A stretch of DNA of 46,157 nt, taken from the IMG/VR virus record IMGVR_UViG_3300030430_002004, positions 1 to 46,157 of that record; one strand, written 5' to 3'. Shown here in pieces: positions 3,662-41,551 of this stretch (positions are counted from its first letter, which is position 1; each line of letters begins with the position of its first letter). The notes below the pieces were generated by a model. The model ran no database searches. It had not been told where the DNA came from and worked only from the letters and a program-made list of their open reading frames with translations. The translations under genes were made by a program, and so were the position numbers. Origin of the DNA: a virus.

Positions 3662-5359
3662 ATGAAAACTCCAGAAGAACTTGGAATAAAAATAAAACAT
3701 CAACGCGAAGGAACACAGAAACTTAAATGCCCTCAATGCCAACCAGACAAACATAATATGAAAGATAACCCCCTTTCTTTTACAATTAACTCAGAAGGTT
3801 GTGTTTGGTTTTGTCATCATTGCGACTGGAAAGGATCTTATGCGGAAAAGAAGTATTCTTTTGCTAAACCTGTTAAGTCTTATACAAAACCTAAGACACC
3901 TACAGAAAGGAAAACAGAAAAGATGTATAAGTATTTTGAAAATAGAGGTATCTCTAAAAAAGTTATAGATGATCATAAAATCTTCCAAGAAGAAAGTTGG
4001 ATTGGTTTTCAATACTTTAATGCAGAAGGAGTTTTAGAAAATATCAAGTATAGGGGTTTATACGATAAAGCTTTCAAACAAACACAAGGGGCAAAACCTT
4101 ATTTATACAATTACAATAATGTACACGATAAAGATACTATTGTTTTTGTAGAAGGCGAAGTAGATGTTTTATCATTAGCAGAGATAGGTATGTATGCAAC
4201 TAGCTTACCAAATGGCGCACCTAAAGAAGCAAAGTTTAATGAAAAAGATGCTAGGTTTTCTCCCCTCTCTAATTGTCCTTTAGAAGCAACTAAAATAATT
4301 TTATTTACTGATAAAGATGAAGCAGGAGAAGCATTACATAAAGAGTTATTGCATAGGTTTGGAAGAGATATTTGTTGGTATGTAGATATTCCTGACGAAT
4401 GTAAAGATGCTAATGATGTTCTTGTTAAATATGGATCTGTTAAATTAAAAGAAATAATAGACAAGGCAGAGCCTTATCCAATAGACGGACTTTACAGGGT
4501 AAGAGATTACAGTTCACAAGTTTTAGATCTTTACGAGGGCAATTATGTAAAACCCTACGATATAGGAATGAAAGGGCTAGATGAAATCTATAAGATAATG
4601 ACAGGTACTTTTCATACAATTACAGGAATACCGAATCATGGTAAATCAATTTTCCTAGATCAAATCCTTTTATCTTTGGCAGAAAAAGAAGATTGGCGAT
4701 TTGCAGTATTTAGCCCAGAACATTCAACAAGTATGCATATAAGGCGATTAGTTCAAATGTACACACAGAAAAATTTTGATGAGGGTTTTAGTAACCGAAT
4801 GACTAAAGATGAGTTAAGCAGAGGTATAGATTTTATTAACGAGCATTTCTTTTTTATAGAAACAAGAGATATTGTGCCAAACATAGAAAATATTTTACAA
4901 ATAGCTAAATCAAGTGTTTTTAAGTATGGGGTAAATGGTCTTGTTATAGATCCTTACAACGAAGTTGATGCTAAAAGATCAGGTAATGCTAGAGAAGATG
5001 AACACATAAGAGATTTTATTTCTTTGTGTAAAAGATTTGCAAGAATTTATGAAGTTGTATGTTGGGTAGTAGCACACCCTACAAAGCTTCCTAAAGGCAC
5101 AGATGGATCTTATATGCCACCTACTGCTTATGATGTATCAGGATCTGCGCATTGGCACAATCAATCAGATGCAGTATTAACAATTTACCGAGATTTTGAA
5201 GACAACACGACAAATGTAATAACAAGAAAAATAAGAGAGCAAGACCTATATGGAAAGATAGGCGAGGCAAAATTTACTTACAATATTAAGAAAAAGACTT
5301 TTGAACCTTATGAGAAGCTTGTACCTAGTGATTGGAATGAAGTTAGCTTTGATGATTAA
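3662..5359 (+). CDS. DNA primase-helicase (T7 gp4 / Twinkle-like)
   Basis: A 565-residue bifunctional replication protein. A zinc-binding CPQC...CHHC module lies near residues 23-55, a Toprim primase domain follows (VFVEGEVDVLSL near 160 and ILFTDKDEAGE near 213), then a RecA-like hexameric helicase with Walker A GIPNHGKS (about 320) and Walker B LVIDPYNEV (about 430). It would prime and unwind DNA at the fork. The length matches T7 gp4. No phage DNA polymerase is present, so it must cooperate with the host replicase. Its 3' end overlaps the converging glycosyltransferase gene by 17 bases. Confidence 0.92.
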   Translation: MKTPEELGIKIKHQREGTQKLKCPQCQPDKHNMKDNPLSFTINSEGCVWFCHHCDWKGSYAEKKYSFAKPVKSYTKPKTPTERKTEKMYKYFENRGISKKVIDDHKIFQEESWIGFQYFNAEGVLENIKYRGLYDKAFKQTQGAKPYLYNYNNVHDKDTIVFVEGEVDVLSLAEIGMYATSLPNGAPKEAKFNEKDARFSPLSNCPLEATKIILFTDKDEAGEALHKELLHRFGRDICWYVDIPDECKDANDVLVKYGSVKLKEIIDKAEPYPIDGLYRVRDYSSQVLDLYEGNYVKPYDIGMKGLDEIYKIMTGTFHTITGIPNHGKSIFLDQILLSLAEKEDWRFAVFSPEHSTSMHIRRLVQMYTQKNFDEGFSNRMTKDELSRGIDFINEHFFFIETRDIVPNIENILQIAKSSVFKYGVNGLVIDPYNEVDAKRSGNAREDEHIRDFISLCKRFARIYEVVCWVVAHPTKLPKGTDGSYMPPTAYDVSGSAHWHNQSDAVLTIYRDFEDNTTNVITRKIREQDLYGKIGEAKFTYNIKKKTFEPYEKLVPSDWNEVSFDD

Positions 5360-6218
5360 GGTTTAAAGACATACCGTAGTTGTTTATCTTCTTACCTGAT
5401 TTATAATTTTCTTTTCTAATTAATTTATTGATTTTAAAAGGCGAATAATCAACGTAATGATGTATTCTGCCAAAGCGTTTTACTATTCTTGATACGTCAG
5501 GGTGTACTTTTACTTGCATTTTAGATTTAGCTAAAGTTCCCTCTATATCGTAAAACTCTGCTGAATTACCGCCTCGTAGAGTTTGTGTGGTCATCTTCTC
5601 TTGGAGAAAAGCATTAAATTGTAACGTACACAACCCTTTTTTTAGTATATCTAGGGATAAAATCGTATCTTCGTTATATCTACCTCTCCACCTAAAAGGG
5701 ATATCGTTTCTTATAAGGTTACAAGAATAGATCCTTGTATTGAGAATAAAAGGCGGGCTTTTTTGTCTTGCAGGTTGAAACATATAGTAATTAGGACCAG
5801 ACATGCCAATATTTTTATATCTAAGAACAAAATCTTCCATAGCTTTAAAGACTGCCCCAGTAGAAACTTTTACTTTTTCATTTTTATTAAATCTTCTAAA
5901 AGAAGTTATGTTATCGTCCATAACCCAATGGTGATCAAAACCCTCGGAAATAGAAACGTCCCAAGCAAAATTTCTTGCAGGACCAGGACCAGTAGATTTT
6001 TCTAAACCAAGATCATCACAGGTATCATATTCTTCTTTGTATTTTAGATCTAAAACAATTAACTTTTTTTTGTGGCCCACATTTTTTAGATAGTCATTGT
6101 ATTCTTGTGGTTCTACCACTATGCGATAAGGCACTTTACAATAATCTAAATATCTAGCTGTTATTAAAGAATCGTATCTGCCTTTTGATGGGATAAATAT
6201 AGGATATTTAGGATTCAT
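5343..6218 (-). CDS. TET-associated glycosyltransferase (TAGT), DNA base modification
   Basis: A 291-residue GT-A fold enzyme. The opening YPIFIPSKGRYDS, the EPQEYNDY segment, the PARNFAWD motif, the metal-binding DDN (WVMDDNI, about residue 122) and the FRWRGRYNEDTILSLD block are hallmarks of TAGT proteins, which in phages attach sugars to hydroxymethylated cytosines. They normally sit next to a TET/JBP oxygenase and a C5 methyltransferase; I find neither here. Directly upstream is a ParB-like gene (overlap of 11 bases), a partner often seen with this family. The substrate in this phage is therefore uncertain: a host-made modified base, a different acceptor, or a remnant pathway. Confidence 0.85.
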   Translation of the reverse strand: MNPKYPIFIPSKGRYDSLITARYLDYCKVPYRIVVEPQEYNDYLKNVGHKKKLIVLDLKYKEEYDTCDDLGLEKSTGPGPARNFAWDVSISEGFDHHWVMDDNITSFRRFNKNEKVKVSTGAVFKAMEDFVLRYKNIGMSGPNYYMFQPARQKSPPFILNTRIYSCNLIRNDIPFRWRGRYNEDTILSLDILKKGLCTLQFNAFLQEKMTTQTLRGGNSAEFYDIEGTLAKSKMQVKVHPDVSRIVKRFGRIHHYVDYSPFKINKLIRKENYKSGKKINNYGMSLNLNHQS

Positions 6219-6825
6219 ACCTCTTTGCTTCGGTGTCCATGTTTTCTTGTTCTGGGTACCAAATATATTTAGTTTTATCAGTAAAAGATTGATTTATTAA
6301 TTTAAAAAACTTCTCTACATCTTCTTGATTTGCAAAGTGTACTAATAAAGTTCTTTCAGAAGTCAGATCTGCTTGGGAGAACTCAGGCATATCATTCCAT
6401 TCTTCTAAAATATCATGCACTACAGCTTCATCTGCAACAAAAGGTATTATTTGCTCTTCGTCAAAGCCAAGAATAGATATATCAAAATTAGTATCGGTAA
6501 GTTCCTTTATTTGTTCCCAAAGTAGATCCTCGTTCCAAGAAGAATTATTTGCAATCTTATTATCTGCAATAATCAAAGCTTTTATTTGATCTTGGGTAAG
6601 ATCCTTGAGGGTTATAGTAGGAATAAGTTTTAACTTAAGTTTTTTTGCGGCTTTATACCTTCCGTGTCCTGCGATTATAGAATTTTCTTGATCTATTAGA
6701 ATAGGATTTACAAATCCAAACTCTTTTATAGAAGAACAGATTTGCTCTATTTGTTTTGCAGAATGATATCTAGGGTTATTCTCGTTTTCCTTTATTTCGG
6801 ATATTTTCTTTTCTTCTATTCGCAT
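6208..6825 (-). CDS. ParB-like (ParB/Srx fold) protein
   Basis: A 205-residue protein with an N-terminal ParB/sulfiredoxin-fold domain: NENNPRYHSAKQIEQI, VNPILIDQENSIIAGHGRYKAA (the GHGR nucleotide-binding motif near residue 53) and IADNKIANN. There is no helix-turn-helix centromere-binding domain, so it is not a partition protein. The C-terminal 60 residues (LLVHFANQEDVEKFF, KYIWYPEQE) form a separate conserved-looking extension. ParB-fold CTPase/nuclease domains accompany phage DNA-modification loci, which fits its overlap with the TAGT gene downstream. Activity is unproven. The gene also overlaps the upstream regulator by 10 bases. Confidence 0.8.
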   Translation of the reverse strand: MRIEEKKISEIKENENNPRYHSAKQIEQICSSIKEFGFVNPILIDQENSIIAGHGRYKAAKKLKLKLIPTITLKDLTQDQIKALIIADNKIANNSSWNEDLLWEQIKELTDTNFDISILGFDEEQIIPFVADEAVVHDILEEWNDMPEFSQADLTSERTLLVHFANQEDVEKFFKLINQSFTDKTKYIWYPEQENMDTEAKRYES

Positions 6826-7028
6826 AACAAAAAGAAATCGTTTGGTTGAACCTTACCTTCTGTAGCTTGAAATATGATATTCATTTCCTTTTTTCTAGGA
6901 ATACGAGTACCAATTATGTATTTAGCTAAAGTGCCTTGTGGCATAACATTTCCAGTTGATCGTTGTATGCGATTAATAAACTCAGTTTGGGTTATATTTT
7001 CCTCAGATAAATATTCCTTAAGTGTCAT
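6816..7028 (-). CDS. Cro/CI-like helix-turn-helix regulator
   Basis: A 70-residue single-domain HTH protein. ENITQTEFINRIQRSTG followed by MPQGTLAKYIIGTRIPRKKEMN is a standard five-helix Cro/CI pattern. It is the first gene of the short leftward operon containing the ParB-like and TAGT genes. The divergent gap upstream (7029-7084) contains a copy of the shared ATTCC-TTGG motif (7035-7047) and a 10-base palindrome AGTGTACACT (7055-7064), so autoregulation and control of the rightward recombination operon are likely. No lysogeny genes accompany it, so it is probably a timing regulator. Which of the two sites it binds is unknown. Confidence 0.8.
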   Translation of the reverse strand: MTLKEYLSEENITQTEFINRIQRSTGNVMPQGTLAKYIIGTRIPRKKEMNIIFQATEGKVQPNDFFLLCE

Positions 7029-7034
7029 ATTTTT

Positions 7035-7076
7035 ATTCCTTTTTGGGTTAATATAGTGTACACTTTACCATATATA
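7035..7076. promoter_or_regulatory. divergent control region: site D and GTGTAC palindrome
   Basis: The 56-base gap between the regulator and the rightward nuclease gene contains ATTCCTTTTTGGG (7035-7047), AGTGTACACT (7055-7064, a perfect 10-base palindrome) and an AT-rich TATATA (7071-7076) that could serve as a rightward -10 close to the ATG at 7085. Both sites overlap where divergent promoters must lie. Confidence 0.5.
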
Positions 7077-7084
7077 GAAATAAA

Positions 7085-7876
7085 ATGAACTTTAAATTGA
7101 ATACAAACGATCCATTTGAAATACACGAAATAGATCATTTATCGCCCTCTAGTATAAATACTTTTATACAAAACAAAGAAGTTTGGATAATGCGCTATCT
7201 ATTCAAATATAAGAATGGAGGATCTCCTGCAATGTGGAGGGGAACTGTTGTAGATCATGCAATAGGAAGCTTATTATTTGAAAATAGAGAAGAAGAAGCT
7301 ATCTTAGAATCATCTAAAAAGGAATTTGTAAATCACTACGAAAAATGCCTTAAAGACTATCCAGATCAAGTAATAGAGCCTTCGCAAGTTCTAAAAGAAC
7401 AAACAGCTTTACCTAAATATTTAAGAACTGCCTTTGATTTCTATAAGACACTAGGCAAACCAACAGATTATCAAAAGAAAGTAGAATATTTTACCGAAGA
7501 AGTACCTATACCGATTATCGGTTATATAGATCTACAGTACGAGAACATTATTAGGGATATAAAGACTACAGGTCGTATGCCTAGTGAAGTATCCTCTGCT
7601 CATGCTAGACAGCTATCTGTTTATGCAAAAGCAGAAGATTGTATGCCTGTATTAGATTATGTGTACGTTACTACGAAAAAAGCAGAAGTAGTGACATTGC
7701 GTGTAACTGATGTAGATAAGCATATAAAAGAGGTGGAAAAAGTTGCATTAGCAATAATGCGATTGCTTTCGTATTCAAATGATAAATATGAAATAGCAAA
7801 TTTATCTTATCCAGACTACGACTCATGGATGTGGTCAGATCAAGAAAAAGAATTTGCTAGGACAATATGGAGTTAA
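7085..7876 (+). CDS. PD-(D/E)XK exonuclease (Cas4/RecB-like)
   Basis: A 263-residue nuclease. LSPSSINTFIQNKEVWIMRY at the N-terminus, WRGTVVDHAIGS, then the catalytic strand pair IPIIGYIDLQYENIIRDIKTTG (D near 158 and D-x-K near 167) and the helix RQLSVYAKA are the RecB/Cas4 arrangement. It probably resects double-stranded ends and hands single strands to the annealing protein encoded 4 bases downstream, forming a Red-like recombination pair. There is no visible cysteine cluster, so the Cas4 iron-sulfur site is missing. It is the first gene of the rightward recombination operon. Confidence 0.82.
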   Translation: MNFKLNTNDPFEIHEIDHLSPSSINTFIQNKEVWIMRYLFKYKNGGSPAMWRGTVVDHAIGSLLFENREEEAILESSKKEFVNHYEKCLKDYPDQVIEPSQVLKEQTALPKYLRTAFDFYKTLGKPTDYQKKVEYFTEEVPIPIIGYIDLQYENIIRDIKTTGRMPSEVSSAHARQLSVYAKAEDCMPVLDYVYVTTKKAEVVTLRVTDVDKHIKEVEKVALAIMRLLSYSNDKYEIANLSYPDYDSWMWSDQEKEFARTIWS

Positions 7877-7880
7877 TTAA

Positions 7881-8585
7881 ATGACTATTCAACTGACTTA
7901 TAAAGAAGTTTGGCAAACTTTAAATGCTTTAGATCTAAGTAACTATCACGATAAAAAAGGGAACTTTACTTATTTATCATGGACAGATGCTTGGAAAATA
8001 TTAATGGAACATTATCCTTATGCGACTTACGAGTTTCAAGCAGAAACTTATGAGCCAAACGGAACGGTAATGTCGCATTGTACAGTCCGTATAGGAAACC
8101 TAGAAAGAACCATGTGGTTGCCTTGTATGGATAATAAAAACAATTCATTAACAAATCCTACTAGCAGACAGATACAAGATTCTAGAATGAGATGTCTTGT
8201 TAAGTGTTTAGCTATGTATGGATTAGCACACTATATTTTTAGAGGCGAAGATCTACCAGATGCCGACAAAGATAAGGCAGAAGCAGATGCTTTAGCTAGT
8301 GGGGGTAAAAGTTATAAGTTTCGTAGCTTACCGACAAAGGACGACAAAGAAGGTGGAATTATCAACGACGATATAAACCCAACTTTATTTCTTAAAACCT
8401 TAAGAACAATGATCGGTAAAAAGACACAAGAAGATTCAGTAGCTTTATACAATCATAATAAAGAAACTATCTACAATGCTAGAGATAATGCCGACAAGGA
8501 AGAAGATATAAAAGCTTACCAAGCACTTATTGCTTTGTATGAAACTGAGGAAGAACCTGAGGTAAAAGATGAGCAAAGCAAATAG
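7881..8585 (+). CDS. single-strand annealing protein, DUF1071 type
   Basis: A 234-residue protein with the DUF1071 signature: FTYLSWTDAWKILMEHYP near residue 28, MWLPCMDNKNNSL near 78 and RQIQDSRMRCLVKCLAMYGL near 95. This family is grouped with Rad52/Sak-like phage recombinases that anneal complementary strands. It follows a PD-(D/E)XK nuclease by 4 bases, the usual pairing. The C-terminal 100 residues are charged and probably flexible. The family assignment is by motif; annealing activity is inferred from the family and context. Confidence 0.8.
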   Translation: MTIQLTYKEVWQTLNALDLSNYHDKKGNFTYLSWTDAWKILMEHYPYATYEFQAETYEPNGTVMSHCTVRIGNLERTMWLPCMDNKNNSLTNPTSRQIQDSRMRCLVKCLAMYGLAHYIFRGEDLPDADKDKAEADALASGGKSYKFRSLPTKDDKEGGIINDDINPTLFLKTLRTMIGKKTQEDSVALYNHNKETIYNARDNADKEEDIKAYQALIALYETEEEPEVKDEQSK

Positions 8586-8856
8586 TCTTACAGATTACGT
8601 CTTTCTGTGTCTTAAAGATGGCAGTTGGTGGACTTTTTGGGAACTTCAAAAAACTATCAAAGAAAAAACAAATGGTAAGTTTTATGGAGAACCTAGCATA
8701 TCTGCGGCAATAAGAAATATTAGAAAAGATCAGTATCGCGCTAGATATAAGATTGATTCTAGTATTGAAGATCCTATTGAAAGAAAAAGAATCGCTTTTA
8801 GTAAGGGTTACAAATATAGATTAATAGATTCTTTAGAAGGAGTAAAAAATGTCTAA
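8569..8856 (+). CDS. winged-helix-like small protein
   Basis: A 95-residue protein whose layout (YVFLCLKDGSWWTFWELQKTI, then YGEPSISAAIRNIRKDQYRA) resembles a winged helix-turn-helix with a basic recognition helix. It overlaps the annealing protein gene by 17 bases and the next gene by 8. Probably a DNA-binding accessory of replication or recombination, or a regulator. No closer family recognised. Confidence 0.65.
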   Translation: MSKANSLTDYVFLCLKDGSWWTFWELQKTIKEKTNGKFYGEPSISAAIRNIRKDQYRARYKIDSSIEDPIERKRIAFSKGYKYRLIDSLEGVKNV

Positions 8857-9250
8857 CTTTACACTTGATGATAATACTGCGGTTCTTTGGTCAGAATCTA
8901 AAGTAAAAGTAGTATTTAAAGGAAAAATAAAATACAAAGCTAGTGATGGTATAGCAAAAGAGGTCTATGGATCTATTCTTAAGTTTGAGAATAGAGAAGG
9001 GCAAACTAAATACGAGTTAGCAAGATCTGTAGGGCTACTACATTACAACAGCGAAGAAGATAAGAAAAATCCTAAAACGCCTGATATAAATGGAAAAGTT
9101 ACTTTAGATGATTCTGAATTTAAGTTTGGTAGTTGGATAAAAGTATCTGAAAGGGGAACTGAGTATTTATTTGCTAGATTAGAACCCCAAGAGGAATACG
9201 AGCAAAGGCAAAATCTAACACCTTCTAAGGAAGCAGAAGCAGACTTTTAA
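8849..9250 (+). CDS. hypothetical protein, possible OB-fold
   Basis: A 133-residue protein of alternating beta strands (KVKVVFKGKIKYKASDG, EVYGSILKFENREGQTKYEL, FGSWIKVSERGTEYLFARLEP) with an acidic C-terminus (SKEAEADF). Strand pattern, acidic tail and position after an exonuclease and annealing protein are all compatible with a single-strand DNA-binding protein, but I cannot confirm the OB-fold, so the name is left open. It has a good AAGGAG Shine-Dalgarno. Confidence 0.6.
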   Translation: MSNFTLDDNTAVLWSESKVKVVFKGKIKYKASDGIAKEVYGSILKFENREGQTKYELARSVGLLHYNSEEDKKNPKTPDINGKVTLDDSEFKFGSWIKVSERGTEYLFARLEPQEEYEQRQNLTPSKEAEADF

Positions 9251-9589
9251 ATGAATTTGCAAGACGAGAAATGGATGCATTCTATTAGACAGTTTGCAGG
9301 TCTAGTAGAAAAAGCTGAGTATGAAGTATTTGAAGCAGAAGCAATAATAAAAAAAACTAAAGCACGACTTATGCTAGAGGCTACAGGGCAAGGGTATAAG
9401 TCTGCAGCTTCACAAGAAGTATTTGCAGAAAATTCAGATACTTTATACCAAGCGAGATTAGATCTAGGAGTAAAGAAAGGATCTCTTTCTGCTATAAAAG
9501 TTCGTCTTGATGCCGTTAAAGTTGGCTTTGAAGAATGGAGAACAAAAATGGTAAATCAGAGAGAAGAACAAAAACGTTATGGAGCATAA
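9251..9589 (+). CDS. hypothetical coiled-coil protein
   Basis: A 112-residue alpha-helical protein. It directly abuts the previous stop (TAAATG). It is rich in Glu, Ala and Lys, with long helices (LVEKAEYEVFEAEAIIKKTK and ARLDLGVKKGSLSAIK), which suggests a coiled-coil oligomer. It may be an accessory of the single-strand-binding or recombination proteins upstream. No known family seen. Confidence 0.6.
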   Translation: MNLQDEKWMHSIRQFAGLVEKAEYEVFEAEAIIKKTKARLMLEATGQGYKSAASQEVFAENSDTLYQARLDLGVKKGSLSAIKVRLDAVKVGFEEWRTKMVNQREEQKRYGA

Positions 9590-9995
9590 AAAAATAGGCT
9601 TTACTTGTAGTGCTTTTGATTTATTGCATTGTGGTCATGTAGTAATGTTACAAGAAGCAAAACAAAATTGTGATTATCTTATTGCAGGACTGCAAACAGA
9701 TCCCTCTATAGATAGGAAAGATAAGAACAAGCCTATACAGTCAATCTTTGAAAGACATACACAATTATCAGCAATCAAGTATGTAGATGAAATAGTGCCT
9801 TATGATACTGAGCAAAGTCTTTTAGATCTCCTTAAAACTTTACAAATAAACATAAGATTTGTTGGCGAAGAATACAAGAATCAAAAATTTACAGGAAAAG
9901 GATTACACGAAGTTTTTTATACAAGTAGAAGGCATAGCTTTTCTACAACAGTTTTAAGACAACAATTAATAAGCATACATAACAAGGGAGCATAA
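9579..9995 (+). CDS. cytidylyltransferase-like nucleotidyltransferase (TagD/RfaE type)
   Basis: A 138-residue enzyme of the HxGH nucleotidyltransferase superfamily. IGFTCSAFDLLHCGHVVML carries the HxGH motif at about residues 18-21, KYVDEIVPY is the usual second conserved block, and a late RHSFSTTVLR corresponds to the nucleotide-binding RTxGISTT-like motif. Such enzymes make CDP- or ADP-activated alcohols and sugars from a phosphorylated substrate and an NTP. In this phage it might supply an activated donor for the glycosyltransferase at 5343-6218, which is an inference with no direct support. It overlaps the coiled-coil gene by 11 bases. Confidence 0.83.
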   Translation: MEHKKIGFTCSAFDLLHCGHVVMLQEAKQNCDYLIAGLQTDPSIDRKDKNKPIQSIFERHTQLSAIKYVDEIVPYDTEQSLLDLLKTLQINIRFVGEEYKNQKFTGKGLHEVFYTSRRHSFSTTVLRQQLISIHNKGA

Positions 9996-20521: not shown

Positions 20522-20875
20522 ATGGCAGCAGGATTCCACCATTTTATAATAGAGCAAGGCGCAACCTTTGGTAGAACGCTTACGCTTAAAGACTCAAGCG
20601 ATGCCCTAGTCAATCTCACAGGCTACTCAGCCGCAGAAATGGATCTGCGTTACAATGCAGACGATAGTTCTGAAGTTCTTACCTTAACAGTAGGTAATTC
20701 AAGAATAACATTAGGTGGTTCTGCTGGAACTGTAATACTTACGATCTCAGCAACAGATACAGGAAATATGAGCGTAGGCGATGGAGTCTATGACCTAAAG
20801 CTAACTGCAGGCGATGGTACAGTATCAAGAATCTTAGAAGGCACATTTTCAGTAAGAGGTAACGTAAGTAGATAA
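20522..20875 (+). CDS. small beta-sandwich structural protein
   Basis: A 117-residue protein: FHHFIIEQGATFGRTLTLKD, LVNLTGYSAAEMDLRYNADD, LTLTVGNSRITLGGSAGTVILTISATDT and GVYDLKLTAGDGTVSRILEGTFSV. This is the pattern of small immunoglobulin-like or BppU-N-like domains found in phage baseplate or neck proteins. It immediately precedes the giant fibre gene (one-base overlap), so it may anchor the fibre to the virion. The anchoring role is inference. Confidence 0.68.
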   Translation: MAAGFHHFIIEQGATFGRTLTLKDSSDALVNLTGYSAAEMDLRYNADDSSEVLTLTVGNSRITLGGSAGTVILTISATDTGNMSVGDGVYDLKLTAGDGTVSRILEGTFSVRGNVSR

Positions 20876-23800
20876 TGGCTATTAGTAAAATAACAGTCTC
20901 GGATGTAAGTCCAAATAATACGATTACCGTATCTGACAATAATCAGATATCTGTTGTAACTGTAGGCATACAAGGACCAGGTGGCCCAAATGCTATTTTA
21001 GGCAGATCAATCAAAGATGGATTTACTGCAGGATCTTCTGACAATGGCGCAGGTCTTATATACGATCATGCGAATGTAAGGTGGTTATCTACAGTAGATT
21101 CAGATGCTTCTAGTTTAAATTTTAAAATACCAAACCTAACTTTTTTAAGTGGGCAAACAGTTACCTCTATCTTAGACGAAGATAATATGGGTAGTAATAG
21201 TGCGACTGCACTTGCAACTCAACAATCAATTAAAGCTTATGTAGATGCCGAGCTAACTTCTCAAGATCTAGATTTTCAAGGAGATAGTGGGGGTGCTTTA
21301 TCTATAGATCTAGATTCAGAAACACTTGATATTGCAGGTGGTACTGGAATAGATACTTCTGGTTCTGGAAATACACTAACAGTTGCAATTGATAGTACAG
21401 TAACAACTCTTACAGGCACACAAACTTTAACCAATAAAACTCTTACAGCACCAGTTTTAAATAACGTAGATCTTAATGCAGGAGATATTTCTTCAGACAC
21501 TGTTATTAATAAATCTCCCACTATAACACTTGCAGGTGATTTAAGCGGTAGCGTACAACTCTCCAATCTAGGCGATGCCACCTTAACTGCAACAGTCATT
21601 AGTAACAGTGTCGCTTTAGGAACAGATACTACAGGTAATTACGTCCAAGACATAAGTGCAGGAGAAGGAATAGATGTCTCTGGATCTGGAAGTGAGACTG
21701 CCTCTGTAACAATAAGTGCGGAAGATGCAACTGCTTCTAACAAAGGTATAGCTTCGTTTGATTCTACTGATTTTACTGTAAGTTCTGGCGATGTCACTCT
21801 AAATGCGGAAAGAGTACAAGATATCGTAGGGGCAATGGTATCAAGCAATACCGAATCTGGGCTTTCTGTTACTTATCAAGATAGCGATGGTACTTTAGAT
21901 TTTGATGCAGACGATTTCACTATTACGTTAGGGGGAGATCTATCTGGTAGTGCTACTGTAACTAATTTAGCAGATGCGACTCTTACCGCTACTATTGTTG
22001 CTAACTCAGTAGCATTAGGCACAGATACAACTGGAAACTATGTTTCTGAAATATCTGCAGGCGAGGGCATAGATATAAGTGGTAGTGGTTCAGAAACAGC
22101 AACAGTAACCATAACAGCAGAAGATGCTACAAGTAGTAATAAAGGAATAGCTTCGTTTGACTCTACCGACTTTACAGTTTCAAGTGGTGCGGTAACAGTT
22201 AATGCAGAAAGAATACAAGATATTGTAGGCGCAATGGTTGGCTCTAACACAGAGTCAGGAATTACAGTTACTTATGAAGATTCTGATGGAACTCTAGATT
22301 TTAATGTAGCAGATCCAGTAATTACTTTAAGTGGAGACGTAGCGGGTTCCGCCACCATGACAAATCTTGGCGATGTTACGATCTCCACTACCATACAAGC
22401 TAATTCAATTGCACTTGGTACAGACACAACAGGTAACTTTGTTGCTGATCTTACTGCAGGAGAAGGGATAGACGTATCTGGTGGTGGTTCTGAAAATGCA
22501 ACTATTACGGTAAGTGCAGAAGATGCGACTGACTCAAATAAGGGTATCGCAAGTTTTGACAGTACCGATTTTACTGTTACTTCTGGAGACGTAACCCTTA
22601 ATGCAGAGAGAGTACAGGACATAGTAGGTGCTATGGTGTCCTCTAATACAGAAAGTGGCATATCAGTAACATACGAGGACTCAGACGGAACACTTGATTT
22701 TAATGTAGCTGATCCTACACTGACCTTCACAGGCGATGTAACTGGTTCAGGCACTATGACAGATCTTGGCAATACTTCTATTGCTCTTACAGTTGCCGCA
22801 AATAGTGTGGCCCTTGGAACTGATACTACAGGAAATTATGTAGCCACTATAGCAGATGCAGGTAACTCTAGAATTACAGTAGCAAACTCTGGAAGTGAGA
22901 CTGCAGGAGTAACTTTAGATATTGCAGACGATGCTATAGGAACTGATCAAATAGCTAATAATGCAGTAACACTAGGCACACAATCTACAGGTAACTATGT
23001 TGCAACAATAGCAGGAACCACAAACGAGATAGAGGTATCTGGATCAGGAAGCGAGACTGCGGCAGTAACTATTGGTCTGCCTGATGATGTAACTATCGGC
23101 GGTGCTTTAACAGTAACAGGTAACTTAACTGTTAACGGTACAACGACTACCCTTAATACAGCAACATTAGATGTAGAAGATCTAACTATTAGAGTAGGTA
23201 AAAATGCTACTACTTTATCTGCAACAAATGGCGCAGGAATAGAGTTTGGAGGATCTTCAAGCAAACCTACTATTACTTGGAATAGTAGCGATGGCAGATT
23301 AGTTTCTAATAAAATCTTTGCCGCAACCTCTTTTGTAGGAGATGTTGCAGGAAACGCTACGACAGCTACAACACTAGAAACTGCAAGAACCATACATGGT
23401 GTATCTTTTGATGGTTCTGCCAATATAGATCTTAGCGAGGTTGTCCAAGATACCGTTGGGGCTATGTTTAGCTCTAATACAGAAACAGGCATAACAGCTA
23501 CTTACCAAGACTCTGATGGTACTTTAGATCTTGTTATTGGCACAGGAGATATAACTAATGCAATGCTTGCAGGTTCTATCGCAAATTCTAAGTTAGCTAA
23601 TTCTTCTATAACTGTATCTGATGGATCTAATTCTACTGCTACTGCATTAGGTAGCACTATTACTTTTTCTGGAACTGCAAATGAAGTAGAAGTAGCAGAA
23701 AGTTCAGGAACAATTACAGTTGGCCTTCCTAGCAGTGTAGATATAACAACCGATCTAAGTGTTAGTAACGTAGATATTGCAACAGGCTCTATAGTTCTTA

Positions 23801-26800
23801 AAAACTCAGGTGCAAAATCTAAAATAGATTTTTACTGCGAATCCAGCAATGCACATTACACAAGATTAGAAGCTGCAGCTCATGCTTCGTACAGTGGCAA
23901 CGTAACTGTTACTCTTCCAACAACAACAGGAACTTTAGCCCTTACATCTAGCAATATCACTGGTAATGCGGCAACAGCAACAGCATTACAAAACGCTAGA
24001 ACAATACACGGAGTTTCTTTTGATGGAACTGCAAATATAGATTTATCAGAGGTGATACAAGACACAGTAGGTGCAATGTTCTCAAGTAACACCGAAACTG
24101 GTATTGCTGCAAGTTATGAAGATGGCGATGGCACTATTGATCTAGTCATTGGTTCTGGGGTAATAACAAATGCCATGTTAGCAGGATCTATAGCAAACGA
24201 TAAACTTGCAGGATCTATAGCCAATAACAAACTTGCTAATTCTACAATTACAGTAACAGATGGCAGTAATTCTACCGATACTGCACTTGGCGGAACAATT
24301 ACATTCTCTGCAGGGGAAGGTATAGATGTAGCTGAATCTTCTGGAACAATTACAATATCAGGAGAAGATGCTACTGCAAGTAATAAAGGAATTGCGAGCT
24401 TTACAAGCGACTTTTCTGTTTCTAGTGGCGCAGTATCTCTAGGAACTTCTGGTGTCTCTGCGGCTACTTATGGCTCTGCTACAGCTATTCCTGTACTAGC
24501 TATAGATGCAAAAGGTAGAGTAACATCTGCAAGTACTGCAAATATCTCAACAAGCTTTACTTTATCTGATGGCAGTAACACTCAAACAGTTGCAGGGGGA
24601 GATACTTTAACAGTTGCAGGAACAAGTAATGAGGTAGATGTTGCTGTAAGTGCTACTGATACTTTGACTATTGGATTGCCAAATGATGTTACTGTTTCTA
24701 ATAATTTAACTGTCTCTGGAAACTTAGTTGTTTCTGGAACTACTACACAAACAGGTTCTGTTGTAACAGACAATAACTTTACTGGTCTTGCTAATGCAAA
24801 TACAGGCAACAGTACTGACTTTGGATTCTACGGAAAATATGTAGAATCAAGCACTACTAAATATGCAGGGATCTTTTACGATGCTTCTACCGATAATACC
24901 TTTAGATTATTTGTAGATACCCAAACAGTTCCTTCTACTACAGTTAATACCAGTGCTACAGGTTATACGGCAGGTAATCTGGTTATAGGTGCACTTACTA
25001 CTTCTGGAATAACTATTGGCAGTACTGCAGTTACTTCAACTGCGGCAGAGCTAAACATACTTGATGGTGTTACTGCTACTGCTTCTGAATTAAATATTTT
25101 AGACGGAGTAACCTCTACCACAGCAGAATTAAATATTCTTGATGGTGTTACAGCAACAGCTACAGAACTTAACATCATGGACGGTAATACAAGTGCTTCC
25201 TCCACTACATTAGCAGATGCAGATAGGTTAGTCGTAAATGACGATGGCACTATGAAACAAGTTGCCCTTACTGATCTAGAAACTTATGTAGAAGGTGCTA
25301 TAGATACTTTAGCTAACTTAACTGCTGTAGGCGCAGGGGGGCAAACTTTAGCTGTAACAGGAAATCAGACCTTAAGTGGTAATCTAACTGTAAATACTAA
25401 TTCCTTTAAAGTAGATGCTTCAAATACCAGAATAGGTATTGGACAAGCTACACCAACAGTTGCTATAGATGCAGGATCTAAAACAGATGCAATACTTTTA
25501 CCAAAAGGCACAACAGCACAAAGACCAAGTGGTGCCGCAGGTCAATTTAGATACAACACTACACTTGGAAAGTTTGAGGGATATACTTCTGAATGGGGCG
25601 AGATAGGCGGTGGTACAAGTACAAACACTTTTGAAGTAAATACTTATACAGGCGATGGCAGTGAAACTGCCTTTACGCTTTCCCAAGCACCTGATAGTGA
25701 AGACAACATCATAGCTTTTATAGAAGGTGTATATCAAAACCCAAACGATTTTATTCTTAATGGCACAACGCTTACCTTTGACGTAGCACCTGCCAATGGC
25801 AGAAAGATAGTTGTATATCACGTAAAAGGCGCAGTAGCAGGCCAGAATCTAACTATATCTACAATGACAGGCGACGGTTCTGATACAACGCTTACTTTAT
25901 CTATAGATCCTATATCAGAAAACAATGTGCAAGTGTACATAGACGGTGTTTATCAAAACAAAGATACCTTTAGTGTTTCTGGAACTACCCTTACTTTCTC
26001 AGAAGCACCGCCAAATGGCTCTAAGGTAGAAGCTATGACTCTTACCCAGACCGACATCAATACCGCAACAATCCTAACCGATGCAGACGGAGATACCAAA
26101 GTTCAGGTAGAAGAAAGCTCAGATGAGGACAAGATAAGATTTGATACCGCAGGAAGCGAGAGAGTTATCATAGACAATGCAGGGAAAGTTGGTATAGGAG
26201 AGAGCACACCTCTTGGAAACCTTCATGTCAAGTCTGGCGAATCAAGCGGTTCTGCTGATGCTAATGCAGACGAACTTGTCATAGAAGGTGCTGGGAATCA
26301 CGGCATACAGTTTTTAGGTCCGAACAACTCATTTATGCAACTTCTGTTTGGGGACAACGATGACAGTGACGTTGGATATCTAGCTTATGACCACACTAAT
26401 AACGCTTTGAGTTTTGGAGTCAATGCAGCAGAAAGAATGAGGATTGATTCTTCTGGAAATGTTGGAGTTGGAACTTCAAGCCCTGCAAGTAAGTTTCACA
26501 TTTCAGCAACAGGAGAAGCTAGAATAATTTTAGAAGGTGATAGTGATAATGATAGTGGGGAAGAATCATCACTATTAGAATTGAGAACAGATGGCGGTGC
26601 TGTAAGACATAGAGTAGAGGCTACAGGCTCAAGTGGAAATGATTTAAAAATTACAGCAGGTGCAGACCAGACTACAAATACTTTAACCTCAGAAATAATT
26701 TTTGAAACTAAAACAGCAAATTCAGCAACAGCAGAAAGAATGAGGATTGATGCTGACGGTAATGTTGGCATCGGAGTTTCAAGTATAGTCAGAGAACCTC

Positions 26801-27477
26801 TACAGGTTCATAGAGCATCTTCTAGTGATGTACAAATACACATGACAAATACCTCTACAGGTACATCAGCTTCTGACGGTATGACTATATTTGCTAATTC
26901 TACAACGTCAGGATTTTGGCAAAGAGAATCTGCAAATATGCTTTTTGCTACAAATGGTACAGAAAGAATGAGAATTCAACCCGGCGGTGGAATTTTAGTA
27001 GGTGGTACCTCTACAGGTGGTACGGTAGCAGCACAAATTGAAGCAAATGGTGGCGATAGTGGAAGATGTTTTCAAAGTACAGTAACGGGAACGGGTTCAG
27101 CTAATGCAATAACATTTAATAATGGAAATGGACAAGTTGGTCGTATAACTACATCTGGTTCGGCAACAAGTTTTGTTGGTTCATCTGACTATAGAATGAA
27201 AGAAAACATAGTCTATGACTGGAATGCAATGACAAAGGTTAAAAACTTAAAACCTGCACAATTTAATTTTAAAACAAATACAGACGAAATAGTTGAAGGT
27301 TTTATTGCACATGAAGCTCAGTCAGTTGTTCCTTATGCTGTAGTAGGAGAAAAAGATGGTGAAGAAATGCAAGGTATGGATTATGGTAAATTAACTGCAA
27401 TCTTAACAAAAGCAATTCAAGAACAACAAGAACAGATAGAAGCAATGAAAAAAGAAATAGAGGAGTTAAAAGGATAA
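20875..27477 (+). CDS. giant repetitive tail fibre with S74 auto-chaperone end
   Basis: A 2,200-residue virion fibre. Residues about 240-660 hold three consecutive units with an exact 133-residue period (GTDTTGNYV blocks at 21619, 22018, 22417 and 22816), then shorter diverged units, a pair of RTIHGVSFDG units (about 23389 and 23998), four 13-residue ELNILDGVTATAS copies (25048-25203) and GNVGVGTSSP-type repeats. The C-terminal 100 residues are a peptidase S74 (intramolecular chaperone) domain: SSDYRMKENIVYDW with the likely nucleophile Ser and DYGKLTAILTKAIQEQ with the catalytic Lys, ending in a coiled coil. S74 domains trimerise beta-helical fibres, then cleave themselves off. It is encoded between head genes rather than with the tail tip. 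Confidence 0.92.
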   Translation: MAISKITVSDVSPNNTITVSDNNQISVVTVGIQGPGGPNAILGRSIKDGFTAGSSDNGAGLIYDHANVRWLSTVDSDASSLNFKIPNLTFLSGQTVTSILDEDNMGSNSATALATQQSIKAYVDAELTSQDLDFQGDSGGALSIDLDSETLDIAGGTGIDTSGSGNTLTVAIDSTVTTLTGTQTLTNKTLTAPVLNNVDLNAGDISSDTVINKSPTITLAGDLSGSVQLSNLGDATLTATVISNSVALGTDTTGNYVQDISAGEGIDVSGSGSETASVTISAEDATASNKGIASFDSTDFTVSSGDVTLNAERVQDIVGAMVSSNTESGLSVTYQDSDGTLDFDADDFTITLGGDLSGSATVTNLADATLTATIVANSVALGTDTTGNYVSEISAGEGIDISGSGSETATVTITAEDATSSNKGIASFDSTDFTVSSGAVTVNAERIQDIVGAMVGSNTESGITVTYEDSDGTLDFNVADPVITLSGDVAGSATMTNLGDVTISTTIQANSIALGTDTTGNFVADLTAGEGIDVSGGGSENATITVSAEDATDSNKGIASFDSTDFTVTSGDVTLNAERVQDIVGAMVSSNTESGISVTYEDSDGTLDFNVADPTLTFTGDVTGSGTMTDLGNTSIALTVAANSVALGTDTTGNYVATIADAGNSRITVANSGSETAGVTLDIADDAIGTDQIANNAVTLGTQSTGNYVATIAGTTNEIEVSGSGSETAAVTIGLPDDVTIGGALTVTGNLTVNGTTTTLNTATLDVEDLTIRVGKNATTLSATNGAGIEFGGSSSKPTITWNSSDGRLVSNKIFAATSFVGDVAGNATTATTLETARTIHGVSFDGSANIDLSEVVQDTVGAMFSSNTETGITATYQDSDGTLDLVIGTGDITNAMLAGSIANSKLANSSITVSDGSNSTATALGSTITFSGTANEVEVAESSGTITVGLPSSVDITTDLSVSNVDIATGSIVLKNSGAKSKIDFYCESSNAHYTRLEAAAHASYSGNVTVTLPTTTGTLALTSSNITGNAATATALQNARTIHGVSFDGTANIDLSEVIQDTVGAMFSSNTETGIAASYEDGDGTIDLVIGSGVITNAMLAGSIANDKLAGSIANNKLANSTITVTDGSNSTDTALGGTITFSAGEGIDVAESSGTITISGEDATASNKGIASFTSDFSVSSGAVSLGTSGVSAATYGSATAIPVLAIDAKGRVTSASTANISTSFTLSDGSNTQTVAGGDTLTVAGTSNEVDVAVSATDTLTIGLPNDVTVSNNLTVSGNLVVSGTTTQTGSVVTDNNFTGLANANTGNSTDFGFYGKYVESSTTKYAGIFYDASTDNTFRLFVDTQTVPSTTVNTSATGYTAGNLVIGALTTSGITIGSTAVTSTAAELNILDGVTATASELNILDGVTSTTAELNILDGVTATATELNIMDGNTSASSTTLADADRLVVNDDGTMKQVALTDLETYVEGAIDTLANLTAVGAGGQTLAVTGNQTLSGNLTVNTNSFKVDASNTRIGIGQATPTVAIDAGSKTDAILLPKGTTAQRPSGAAGQFRYNTTLGKFEGYTSEWGEIGGGTSTNTFEVNTYTGDGSETAFTLSQAPDSEDNIIAFIEGVYQNPNDFILNGTTLTFDVAPANGRKIVVYHVKGAVAGQNLTISTMTGDGSDTTLTLSIDPISENNVQVYIDGVYQNKDTFSVSGTTLTFSEAPPNGSKVEAMTLTQTDINTATILTDADGDTKVQVEESSDEDKIRFDTAGSERVIIDNAGKVGIGESTPLGNLHVKSGESSGSADANADELVIEGAGNHGIQFLGPNNSFMQLLFGDNDDSDVGYLAYDHTNNALSFGVNAAERMRIDSSGNVGVGTSSPASKFHISATGEARIILEGDSDNDSGEESSLLELRTDGGAVRHRVEATGSSGNDLKITAGADQTTNTLTSEIIFETKTANSATAERMRIDADGNVGIGVSSIVREPLQVHRASSSDVQIHMTNTSTGTSASDGMTIFANSTTSGFWQRESANMLFATNGTERMRIQPGGGILVGGTSTGGTVAAQIEANGGDSGRCFQSTVTGTGSANAITFNNGNGQVGRITTSGSATSFVGSSDYRMKENIVYDWNAMTKVKNLKPAQFNFKTNTDEIVEGFIAHEAQSVVPYAVVGEKDGEEMQGMDYGKLTAILTKAIQEQQEQIEAMKKEIEELKG
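21619..22815 (+). repeat. three tandem 399-base (133-residue) repeats in the fibre gene
   Basis: The GTDTTGNYV-encoding block starts at 21619, 22018, 22417 and 22816, each exactly 399 bases apart. The encoded residues are nearly identical between units (SFDSTDFTV, NAERVQDIVGAMV, SNTESG) while many third codon positions differ, so the repeats are old and conserved at protein level. Confidence 0.9.
25048..25203 (+). repeat. four 39-base (13-residue) repeats in the fibre gene
   Basis: ELNILDGVTATAS-type units start at 25048, 25087, 25126 and 25165. Copies use different synonymous codons. The same unit is known from structural proteins of T4-like cyanophages, from memory. Confidence 0.85.
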
Positions 27478-27478
27478 T

Positions 27479-28732
27479 ATGGCAAACACAAAGATCCCTG
27501 TAGAACTGTCAAGTACACCAGGAATCGCAGACAGCAGTGATGCTACTGCTATAACAATCAACAGTAGTGAGCAGGTAGGAATAGGTACGACTAGTCCTGT
27601 TGCAACTTTACAGGTAAAAACACAGACAAACGGAAACTTAGCTTTTCAAAACTCAACATCAGTTTCTGGAGGTGTAAAGCTTAACTGTTTTAATGATGCG
27701 GCAAATGCCAGTTCCCCTTTTGAAATTGACGGCTCTACTTTGCAATTCAATGTTGCTGCAAGTGAGAAAATGAGAATTGATTCTTCAGGACGAGCAATGA
27801 TAGGTACAACCGATGCAGGTTATCCTGATTATGGCGATAGCTTAACTCTTGGCGATGTTGATGGCGGTGGTGGTAATGCTGGAATGACCATAAGAAGTGG
27901 TTCGGGAAGTTATGGTACTTTTTATTTTTCTGATGATACAGGAACAGCAGCAGGTACTTACGCAGGAAAAATGCAATATAACCATAGTAATAATTCTTTG
28001 ATATTTGCGACTAATAGCGTTGATAGATTCACAATAGACTCTTCTGGCAACGCTGTTTTTTCTGGCGCTACCATAACAGTTGGTGACAGTCATACTTTTG
28101 GTAATGGTGGAGGAGATAATTTACATATAGAGTCAAGTTCAGGCGAAAACATAGTCATTAATTCTGCAGGTGGAATTCATGTTTTTCAAGATAATGGTAC
28201 AGAGCAGATGAGAATTTCTGGTGACAATGTTTTAATTAAAACTACAGACACAGGACAAAACTCGGGTACAGGTGTCAAATTTGTAAATACAAGACTCTAT
28301 ATGGTGAATGGTCTTACTAGTGGAGAACAAATATCATATTATGGGAGTGGTGGGTATAAATACTATGTGAGTGTTGCAGGTAAAATACATACTGCTGTAG
28401 GGCCAGCGGTTTATAGCGTTTCTGATGAAAGACTAAAAGAAAATATAAGAGATTACGATAAAGGATTAACAGATATTTTAAAACTAAAACCTAGACTTTT
28501 TGATTGGAAAGAAGGTGAAGGTAGTAATGAAAAAAATGTATCAGGATTTGTAGCACAAGAATGTGAAGCAGCAGGTTTTGATGAGTTTGTCGGAGACTTT
28601 AAGCATGATACTCTTACTGATGCAAAATCTTTTGGAGCAGGTGGATTAATACCTGCGCTTGTAAAAGCAATACAAGAACAACAAACAATAATAGACGACT
28701 TAAAGTCTAGGATAGAAAAACTAGAGGAATAA
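27479..28732 (+). CDS. second tail fibre with S74 auto-chaperone end
   Basis: A 417-residue fibre starting one base after the first. The N-terminus (ADSSDATAITINSSEQVGIG) is closely similar to that of the next gene, suggesting a shared virion attachment segment. The middle has repeated MRIDSSGRAMIG / FTIDSSGNAVFSG units typical of beta-helical fibres. The C-terminal S74 domain has SVSDERLKENIRDYD (likely Ser nucleophile), KLKPRLFDWKEGE, VSGFVAQECEAAGF and GLIPALVKAIQEQQ (Lys), ending in a coiled coil. Probably a receptor-binding or side fibre. Confidence 0.88.
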   Translation: MANTKIPVELSSTPGIADSSDATAITINSSEQVGIGTTSPVATLQVKTQTNGNLAFQNSTSVSGGVKLNCFNDAANASSPFEIDGSTLQFNVAASEKMRIDSSGRAMIGTTDAGYPDYGDSLTLGDVDGGGGNAGMTIRSGSGSYGTFYFSDDTGTAAGTYAGKMQYNHSNNSLIFATNSVDRFTIDSSGNAVFSGATITVGDSHTFGNGGGDNLHIESSSGENIVINSAGGIHVFQDNGTEQMRISGDNVLIKTTDTGQNSGTGVKFVNTRLYMVNGLTSGEQISYYGSGGYKYYVSVAGKIHTAVGPAVYSVSDERLKENIRDYDKGLTDILKLKPRLFDWKEGEGSNEKNVSGFVAQECEAAGFDEFVGDFKHDTLTDAKSFGAGGLIPALVKAIQEQQTIIDDLKSRIEKLEE

Positions 28733-28733
28733 T

Positions 28734-30104
28734 ATGGCACTAACGAAGATCACAAGGGCAATATTAGATACAGGAATATCAGACAGCTCTGATGCTACTG
28801 CTATTACTATTGATAGTTCTGAAAATGTTGGCATAGGGGTTACAACTCCTTTTAGTCAAACACAAATTACAGAAACAGGCTGGTCAAGCGGTGCACCTTA
28901 TGGAACAGTTTTAACAGTAACAGGTAATAATACTAATGATGCTAACTGGGGTCATTTGTTAATTACTGACAGCTCAACTGGAACAGGTAATGGTGGAATG
29001 TTGAGATTCGCAACAGGCTCAACATCTAGCGACATAAATCCTTTTGCTGGTATTGACGGTTTTACTGAGGGAAGTGCGTATGGTGGTTTAAAATTTTTGA
29101 CCAGACCGAACGGCGGCACATCAACGGAAAGAATGAGAATTGATTCATCAGGAAAGGTTGGCATAGGAACTTCAAGCCCTGGAACTATCTTGCATACAAG
29201 AACATCAGATGCTACATCCAATAATAATGCAGGTGGTGGTTTTTACCATGTAAGTTCTTCAACAGCAGGATCTAGGATAGCTAGTGTTTTTTTAGATGCA
29301 GATAATGGTAATTTCAGCACAAGTTCTGATGGTGCTTATGCTTACATAGAAAAAATAGGTGGTGGTGGTAATTTAAATATTAGAAATCAAGATAGTTCAC
29401 CTATAGCTTTTTATAGAAGTAGCTCAGAAAGTATGAGAATAGATGGCTCTGGAAATCTCGGTGTTGGTACTACAAGTCCTGATAGATTGTTTCACGTAAA
29501 AGGTTCTGCATCCACAGTAGCTAAATTTGCTAGTACAGGAAATATTGTCTATATAGAACTAAATGCAGCAGACCAAGTGGGAGCTGATGCAGGATATATA
29601 AAATACAACAATACTAAAGAAATGTCTTTTTGGACAAGCGACACAGAAAGGATAATCGTTGATTCTTCTGGCAATTTAAAACCTAAAACAGATGCAGGTT
29701 ATTCAGGACACTCAGATTTAGGAAGTTCTAGTTTAAGATATGAGGATGCTTATGTTAGAGATGGTGTTACCACTGGTTCTGATAGAAATGAAAAAGAAAA
29801 TATTACTGAAAGCAATTTAGGTTTAACTTTTATCAAAGAATTACAACCTGTTTCTTATACATGGAAAAATAATAGTTCTAATAGAACTCACTATGGTTTG
29901 ATTGCACAAGACATAGAAACTTGGTTAAGTGACAATGATAAAAGCAATACAGACTTTGCAGGATTAATTAAAGAAGATATAAGCGAAGAACAAGATGGCT
30001 CAAACTATAGATATGGTCTTAGATATACAGAATTTATATCTCCATTAATAAAAGCAATCCAAGAATTATCAGCAAAAGTAGAAGAATTAGAAAAAAAAGT
30101 TTGA
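28734..30104 (+). CDS. third tail fibre with S74-like end
   Basis: A 456-residue fibre starting one base after the second, with the same N-terminal segment (SDSSDATAITIDSSENVGIG). Internal MRIDSSGKVGIGTSSPG repeats match those of both neighbours. The C-terminal S74-like domain reads GSDRNEKENITESNLG, KELQPVSYTWKNN, YGLIAQDIETWL and LRYTEFISPLIKAIQE. At the usual Ser position the order is GSDRNEK, so a Ser remains, but in place of the common GKL-type Lys block there is RYTEF, so self-cleavage may be altered. It is the last of three consecutive S74 fibres. Confidence 0.85.
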   Translation: MALTKITRAILDTGISDSSDATAITIDSSENVGIGVTTPFSQTQITETGWSSGAPYGTVLTVTGNNTNDANWGHLLITDSSTGTGNGGMLRFATGSTSSDINPFAGIDGFTEGSAYGGLKFLTRPNGGTSTERMRIDSSGKVGIGTSSPGTILHTRTSDATSNNNAGGGFYHVSSSTAGSRIASVFLDADNGNFSTSSDGAYAYIEKIGGGGNLNIRNQDSSPIAFYRSSSESMRIDGSGNLGVGTTSPDRLFHVKGSASTVAKFASTGNIVYIELNAADQVGADAGYIKYNNTKEMSFWTSDTERIIVDSSGNLKPKTDAGYSGHSDLGSSSLRYEDAYVRDGVTTGSDRNEKENITESNLGLTFIKELQPVSYTWKNNSSNRTHYGLIAQDIETWLSDNDKSNTDFAGLIKEDISEEQDGSNYRYGLRYTEFISPLIKAIQELSAKVEELEKKV

Positions 30105-41279: not shown

Positions 41280-41551
41280 TGGATATAGTTCAACTTATTG
41301 CAGATTTTGGCTTTCCTGTAGTCATGGTTATTGGTCTAGGTTATTTTGTGTATTTTGTTTGGCAAACAATTACTAAAGTCATAGATCCTGCAGTACAAGA
41401 TATGAAAACTACAGTTATAAGATTGACAGATCAATTAAGACTTTTAGATCAAGATATGATCAGACTACAGCAAAAAGTAAATACAGTGTTAGAATTAAAA
41501 GAAGAAAATAAATTAAAAGATGACAACGAAAAAGAAGAAAAAAAGGACTAG
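41279..41551 (+). CDS. single-helix membrane protein, paralogue 2 (holin/antiholin candidate)
   Basis: A 90-residue protein starting inside the stop of paralogue 1. It begins DIVQLIADFGFPVVMVIGLGY, parallel to the neighbour's EIFNLVAEVGVPIAGALTMAY. A membrane helix (about 12-33) is followed by a coiled-coil part (VQDMKTTVIRLTDQLRLLDQD) and a Lys/Glu tail. It overlaps the CsgF-like gene by 32 bases, so curli-like and membrane genes are translationally linked. Confidence 0.68.
   Translation: MDIVQLIADFGFPVVMVIGLGYFVYFVWQTITKVIDPAVQDMKTTVIRLTDQLRLLDQDMIRLQQKVNTVLELKEENKLKDDNEKEEKKD

Follow-up and report, generated by a model that had tools for sequence, protein, structure and literature searches.

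Described phage systems closest to the one analysed here centre on the TET-associated glycosyltransferase (TAGT, Pfam family PF20691), which accompanies a TET/JBP oxygenase in loci such as gp26-27 of Nonlabens phage P12024L, and which in phage T6 is the likely enzyme for the second glucose on glucosyl-hydroxymethylcytosine DNA (PMC13390438). A DNA role for an enzyme of this type is not new, as one was predicted earlier for the homologue of phage Aeh1, a glycosyltransferase presumed in a Tevenvirinae study, citing Iyer et al. 2013, to modify an 'unknown base' of DNA (PMC8056088). Here we analyse the IMG/VR virus record IMGVR_UViG_3300030430_002004, the whole 46,157 bp of which we call the window, and in it a TAGT, its ParB-like partner and a TagD-like cytidylyltransferase. 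An earlier note, made from the sequence alone, had described these genes, taken the first two as typical of TET/JBP loci and seen in the missing TET something unusual, a reduced pathway being one of its options. The genes are real, as is the lack of an acceptor-making enzyme, but the emphasis on the missing TET was misplaced. The window genes probably constitute a small, widespread cassette for phage DNA glycosylation, and we consider it likely that the ParB-coupled TAGT glycosylates the DNA ahead of packaging, with neither TET nor a phage-encoded hydroxymethylase involved.

The window has PF20691 and its catalytic residues in common with the TET-JBP/TAGT loci, but it lacks TET, its TAGT belongs to a separate clade, and its partner protein carries an additional domain, here called IWYP. 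The TET-linked loci L325 and L327 (L numbers denote loci of our compilation), with the gene order ParB, TAGT, TET, small gene, terminase, also resemble the ParB-TAGT cassette in the ParB gene and the position before the terminase. The T6 enzyme, only distantly similar (39.4 bits to the PF20691 profile), likewise has a presumed DNA substrate, but T6 provides hydroxymethyl-dCMP and an alpha-GT and the window neither. Among the closest named relatives of the window TAGT is the Aeh1 gene (~51% identity), fused to an IWYP domain; Aeh1 differs in lacking a separate ParB gene and in having a large T4-like genome that encodes a thymidylate synthase. The Aeh1ORF087c of the Tevenvirinae listing is presumably this relative, Aeh1p093. 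The MetaGPA paper, consulted for a link of ParB or TAGT to modified cytosine, mentions neither. In the literature covered we did not find a description of the IWYP domain, of independence from TET in quantitative terms, or of the equivalence of the cassette's slot with those of Mom, methyltransferase, Cmo-like and TET genes.

Six-frame profile searches of the 46-kb record gave no match to Tet_JBP (PF12851), even at E≤0.1, nor to C5 DNA_methylase (PF00145), Thymidylat_synt/hydroxymethylase (PF00303) or N6_N4_Mtase (PF01555), bearing out the absence of TET and C5 methyltransferase already noted and returning nothing in the window from the profile search for a divergent TET or thymidylate hydroxymethylase that the earlier note had proposed. 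As positive controls, the same search picked up the TET of Nonlabens phage P12024L (2.8e-29) and recovered TET at all four ParB-linked TET loci (E≤6e-11), and a divergent TET or methyltransferase hidden in the window was rejected on this basis. We then surveyed 71 TAGT-bearing records, 38 from the window's clade and 33 from a second deep one. TET was detected by profile in none, C5 methyltransferase in three and the thymidylate synthase family in five, every one of these in the first set, leaving 63 of the 71 with none of the three. The TAGTs of L325, L327, L171 and Nonlabens form a branch of their own apart from the window clade (100/99) in a tree with long branches, its wrongly extracted 40-aa T6 row being disregarded, and the window TAGT, lying outside this TET-linked branch, was rejected as part of a TET locus. 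Judged by sequence, a ParB-TAGT pair without TET is what two deep TAGT clades normally carry, and it does not represent a reduced TET locus. As TET is confined to one TAGT branch, small and separate, 'TET-associated' is a misleading name for the rest.

The window TAGT scores 140.7 bits against PF20691, for which the curated cut-off is 27.5 (Table 1). Twelve residues (R14, E36, Y43, R82, N83, D101, D102, E128, G141, D184, G217 and Y223) do not vary across 47 aligned TAGTs, TET-linked and ~24%-identical ones among them; the catalytic set (the Asp-Asp pair, R82-N83, E128 and D184) lies within these twelve, and active-site residues are strongly conserved in alignments of 39-83 sequences. The AlphaFold2 model, calculated as the earlier note had suggested, has a mean pLDDT of 91 and a pTM of 0.89, and its best Foldseek matches are the GT-A enzymes GnT-I, COLGALT1, LARGE1 and GalNAc-T2 (E down to 3.7e-5). 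Sequence and model thus show a TAGT of GT-A type whose active site is intact, although TM-scores of only ~0.4-0.5 settle the fold and not the substrate; a sequence search of solved structures gave no TAGT relative. As most of the GT-A enzymes matched use UDP-sugars, a UDP-sugar from the host can reasonably be taken as the default donor.

The ParB gene overlaps that of the TAGT by 11 bp in a common operon. Its product has a ParB_N domain in which N17 and G53 are invariant and R56 and N89 nearly so among 42 homologues, and the AlphaFold2 model matches ParB/Noc CTPase domains, sulfiredoxin and free serine kinase. Neither the helix-turn-helix nor the C-terminal dimerisation domain of a chromosome-partition ParB is seen by Pfam, which shows ParB_N plus the IWYP region only, and the general Pfam and PHROG scans gave no ParA-like match among the window open reading frames (ORFs) scanned. 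The IWYP domain occupies the last ~65 residues, with the pattern W..MPEF...F...F...T.KTK.IWYP and the invariant residues W143, P147, F173 and P191 (42 homologues). It matches no Pfam family above cut-off, and this part of the model is of mixed confidence. In L071 (86 aa), L159 (114 aa) and Vibrio phage henriette (108 aa) the domain alone is the entire partner gene beside the TAGT, and in Aeh1, Tenacibaculum PTm1, Vibrio 1.076.O and Vibrio 1.124.O it is fused to the TAGT N-terminus, the classical fusion argument for physical coupling. When two versions of the domain were searched by tblastn against 50,697 phage records at E≤1, matches were confined to TAGT carriers, and even the weak ones near E=1 in phage 65 fall in its TAGT gene. 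These sequences suggest that, in the window's TAGT clade, the partner that cannot be dispensed with is the IWYP domain and not ParB_N. ParB-fold proteins, some from phages, bind CTP, ATP or GTP (PMC12704722), which makes nucleotide-switched loading of the TAGT onto DNA plausible. In Vibrio phage henriette 12B8 (HQ316582; L126:4639-5819) the IWYP-domain and TAGT genes both exist, and the record leaves both unannotated.

Eighty close TAGT relatives were taken from at least 598 confirmed candidate stretches in IMG/VR. ParB is directly upstream of the TAGT in 60 of the 63 that have 900 bp of upstream sequence, with gaps of -98 to +2 bp, the overlap lengths being approximate because ORF starts were set mechanically. 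Of 40 close relatives, 32 have a large-terminase gene no more than 3 kb downstream. In the second deep clade (the MT835491/Porphyromonas-phage type, ~24-25% identical) ParB is adjacent at 59 of 76 loci; this clade (L173-L251, e.g. L134:6871-7833) is one of phages from gut and rumen, in which TAGTs often stand in tandem, and at 18 of its loci a radical-SAM enzyme lies beside ParB-TAGT. Relatives of the cassette in Erwinia, Pantoea, Chryseobacterium, Xenophilus and Rhodovulum assemblies are presumably prophages, and the hosts of carriers span Enterobacterales, Bacteroidota, and alpha- and betaproteobacteria. A sugar-nucleotide epimerase is added in L033, L035 and L040 (PF01370 confirmed in L035), and L035 and L040 have a further gene that is glycosyltransferase-like by eye and has no Pfam match.

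Phage records with a ParB_N relative of the window protein number 317; most among the matches listed are annotated as DNA methylases or ParB-like, and those examined are the N-terminal parts of N6/N4 methyltransferases. We describe the slot from 86 IMG/VR ParB loci, drawn with Mom-linked and TAGT-linked queries, so that the counts are not population frequencies. An N6/N4 methyltransferase is fused to ParB at 34 of the 86, the gene after ParB is Mom at at least 21 and TAGT at 13, and other occupants are C5 methyltransferase (L283, L323), an ABC-ATPase/GNAT protein (L290) and TET (L314, L328). At 71 of the loci ParB has the large terminase within 3 kb after it. In Psychrobacter phage Y8A, Mom (Pfam 1.8e-55) lies between ParB and terminase. 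The ParB_N-N6/N4 methyltransferase fusions and ParB-Mom pairs have a ParB_N homologous to that of the window and sit before the terminase, as do the window's cassette relatives, but their effectors transfer methyl or carbamoylmethyl-type groups instead of a sugar, and in the examples examined their ParB is without the IWYP motif. As the same slot holds N6/N4 methyltransferase, Mom, C5 methyltransferase, TET or TAGT (seen in L252-L331), it is an exchangeable DNA-modification slot of which TAGT is one occupant. ParB-domain proteins are also reported around the biochemically proven CmoX/CmoA DNA carboxymethylation system, and the CmoX/CmoA/CmoY carboxymethylcytosine system is similarly a phage DNA modification, but with different chemistry and its own handle-making enzyme (PMC12783734).

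Three further arrangements were seen in this slot. An ABC-type ATPase fused to a GNAT acetyltransferase domain lies before the terminase at L290:1333-2400 (Pfam-confirmed), L298, L309 and L316, and is possibly another DNA-modifying effector. At L323:4473-6195 and L331 ParB is followed by a C5 methyltransferase, a small SAM-methyltransferase and then terminase, resembling the CmoX/CmoA genes. At L328:4579-5843 the order is ParB, P-loop kinase-like protein, TET, terminase, the kinase replacing the glycosyltransferase.

The cytidylyltransferase matches the CTP_transf_like family and is closest among solved structures to Pcyt2 and TagD/GCT (GCT 1coz, E=2e-15, by PDB sequence search). It has the HxGH (FDLLHCGH) and C-terminal R..(S)TT (RRHSFSTT) motifs, with H17, G19, H20, R117 and S122 conserved, and PHROG labels its relatives heptose-1-phosphate adenylyltransferase. 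Its link to the cassette comes through orthologues, 69-74% identical, adjacent to ParB-TAGT in L004-L009, L033 and L039. The nearest relatives, L004-L009, have it immediately before ParB (69-73% identical to the window copy), so the separate window gene probably represents this component, either relocated or retained in a different operon. A homologue is found at 23 of 63 loci, adjacent in 18, before ParB or after TAGT. Relatives elsewhere lie in records without TAGT (0 of 26 carry it), in L099, L102 and L103 near GDP-mannose dehydratase and epimerases; Agathobaculum phage AB434P2 has one at a distance of one gene from an annotated deoxyuridylate hydroxymethyltransferase. Being optional at the loci and occurring also without TAGT, the cytidylyltransferase was rejected as an obligatory donor enzyme. 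The sugar-nucleotide and hydroxymethyltransferase neighbours of these relatives would fit the making of an activated sugar-like donor, generally and perhaps here, and it may be an accessory for special-donor synthesis. At L119:5025-7350 a relative stands next to SIS-domain, HAD-phosphatase and transaldolase genes, neighbours that suggest a phage-encoded heptose-nucleotide route.

Our proposed scheme has the ParB-fold protein partner the TAGT through its C-terminal IWYP domain and probably load or position it on phage DNA, where the TAGT would glycosylate the DNA from a nucleotide sugar, in most cases probably a UDP-sugar of the host; the cytidylyltransferase may activate a special sugar or sugar-like donor. 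Glycosylation would take place after replication and before packaging, a timing suggested by the slot upstream of the terminase that is common to other DNA-modifying enzymes, and its likely role would be protection against host restriction. The N6/N4 methyltransferases, Mom and C5 methyltransferases act on canonical bases, and since these other common slot enzymes do so, a canonical base is the simplest reading of the acceptor. One-step transfer by the TAGT to an unmodified canonical base in double-stranded DNA, needing no handle, is nevertheless a tentative proposal, possible but on the unlikely side.

DNA is the probable target. A virion protein, RNA or host surface glycan could be the target instead, the ParB neighbour reflecting operon history only, and the protein O-glycosyltransferases COLGALT1 and GalNAc-T2 among the GT-A matches, together with a terminase neighbourhood that is also a virion-gene neighbourhood, would suit this. 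We regard it as improbable, given that the TAGT-specific IWYP domain is tied to ParB-fold DNA-associated proteins, that the same slot is otherwise occupied by DNA-modifying enzymes and that the T6 TAGT is linked to DNA. If the target is DNA, the TAGT might still require a handle (hydroxymethyl, hydroxyl or other) provided by a host enzyme or by an unrecognised phage enzyme, as the T6 and TET-linked TAGTs act, or are placed, downstream of hydroxymethylcytosine formation; radical-SAM genes could supply the handle at the 18 second-clade loci that have them. Against this, the first clade has no common extra gene beyond ParB, the TET, C5 methyltransferase and thymidylate synthase profiles are silent in most of the records surveyed, and the broad host range of carriers makes one host handle-making enzyme unlikely. 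We hold this dependence on a handle to be possible, if on the unlikely side.

Readings that retain TET fare worse. Because the TETs of related cassettes are divergent, one of them at the cut-off (34.6 of 34.9 bits), an ordinary TET system with a TET below profile detection might be imagined, but the controls above caught all four of these, the window stayed silent at the most permissive threshold, and its leftover unassigned ORFs are mostly too short; such a system is highly improbable. Still less credible is a decayed TET pathway retaining a non-functional TAGT: ParB-TAGT-TET cassettes do exist (L325, L327), but their TAGTs are a small branch, the TET-less clades are large and diverse, and the active site is strongly conserved.

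Several points weigh against ParB-coupled DNA glycosylation itself. The window ParB-TAGT is not beside the terminase, lying at 5.3-6.8 kb (-) compared with 12.5-14.2 kb (+), ~6 kb apart, and the nucleotidyltransferase sits in a different operon. Many surveyed records are fragments, so not all absence counts are absolute; none of the three families occurs in 17 first-set records of at least 30 kb or in any of the 33 of the second set (minimum 34.8 kb, mean 58 kb). ParB-fold proteins have other activities (CTPase switch, kinase). Known DNA glycosyltransferases have hydroxymethylated or hydroxylated pyrimidines as their substrates, and the window makes neither. Finally, the case for DNA modification in any carrier is built from sequence and structure models.

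Table 1. Features of the ParB-TAGT region and the nucleotidyltransferase gene in the window.
Feature	Position	Strand	Evidence
TAGT glycosyltransferase, 291 aa, GT-A fold	5343-6218	-	PF20691 8e-41 (Pfam scan); AlphaFold2; Foldseek
Asp-Asp (residues 101-102), motif HWVMDDN, presumed metal/nucleotide site	5913-5918	-	invariant in 47 TAGTs
ParB-fold protein, 205 aa	6208-6825	-	PF02195 2.3e-11 (Pfam scan); AlphaFold2 model
ParB_N domain (residues 3-87), box II GHGR	6565-6819	-	Pfam span
C-terminal 'MPEF...IWYP' domain (residues ~141-205) of ParB protein	6211-6405	-	invariant residues, fusions
Small protein, 70 aa, operon's first gene	6816-7028	-	PHROG 2967 E=0.0027
TagD/Pcyt2-like nucleotidyltransferase, 138 aa	9579-9995	+	PF01467 1e-12 (Pfam scan)

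The 70-aa protein that opens the operon weakly resembles a phage transcriptional regulator, and its family is found again upstream of ParB in the closest relatives. Other sizeable window genes are assigned by Pfam and PHROG scans to replication, head, tail, fibre, curli secretion and recombination (a Sak-type annealing protein, PD-(D/E)XK and Ref nuclease), and some remaining sizeable ORFs have no Pfam or PHROG match. CsgF (PF10614, 2.7e-20), CsgG (PF03783, 3.5e-48) and a FecR-domain protein are encoded at 41520-42774 and 43348-44520 (+), curli-secretion genes being an apparently known theme among marine phages. Three successive tail-fibre-like genes at 20875-30104 (+) encode 2200, 417 and 456 aa and have PHROG tail-fibre families in common, the 2200-aa protein terminating in a Peptidase_S74 chaperone domain. 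DNA blast against named phages gave nothing beyond short matches of 67-74%. A ~99-bp direct repeat at 1-99 and 46058-46157, its final base mismatched, is likely the assembly overlap of a circular or permuted genome, so the description of the genome as closed in the earlier note is reasonable but falls short of proof.

If ParB-coupled glycosylation is confirmed, the cassette would be a compact two- or three-gene route to sugar on DNA, with no remaking of the nucleotide pool and no oxidation of 5-methylcytosine, and sugar would join the groups installed from the ParB-terminase slot. It would also explain a set of 'beta-glucosyl-HMC-alpha-glucosyltransferase' annotations in phages without a recognised HMC pathway, and offer a portable enzyme for labelling DNA. 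A direct test is feasible, since the cassette is present in cultured phages and in prophages of cultured strains (Aeh1, phiAS5, Vibrio 1.076.O, 1.124.O and Chryseobacterium gambrini). We know of no description so far of one-step glycosylation of a canonical DNA base; were this the reaction, it would be a chemistry present in hundreds of phages.

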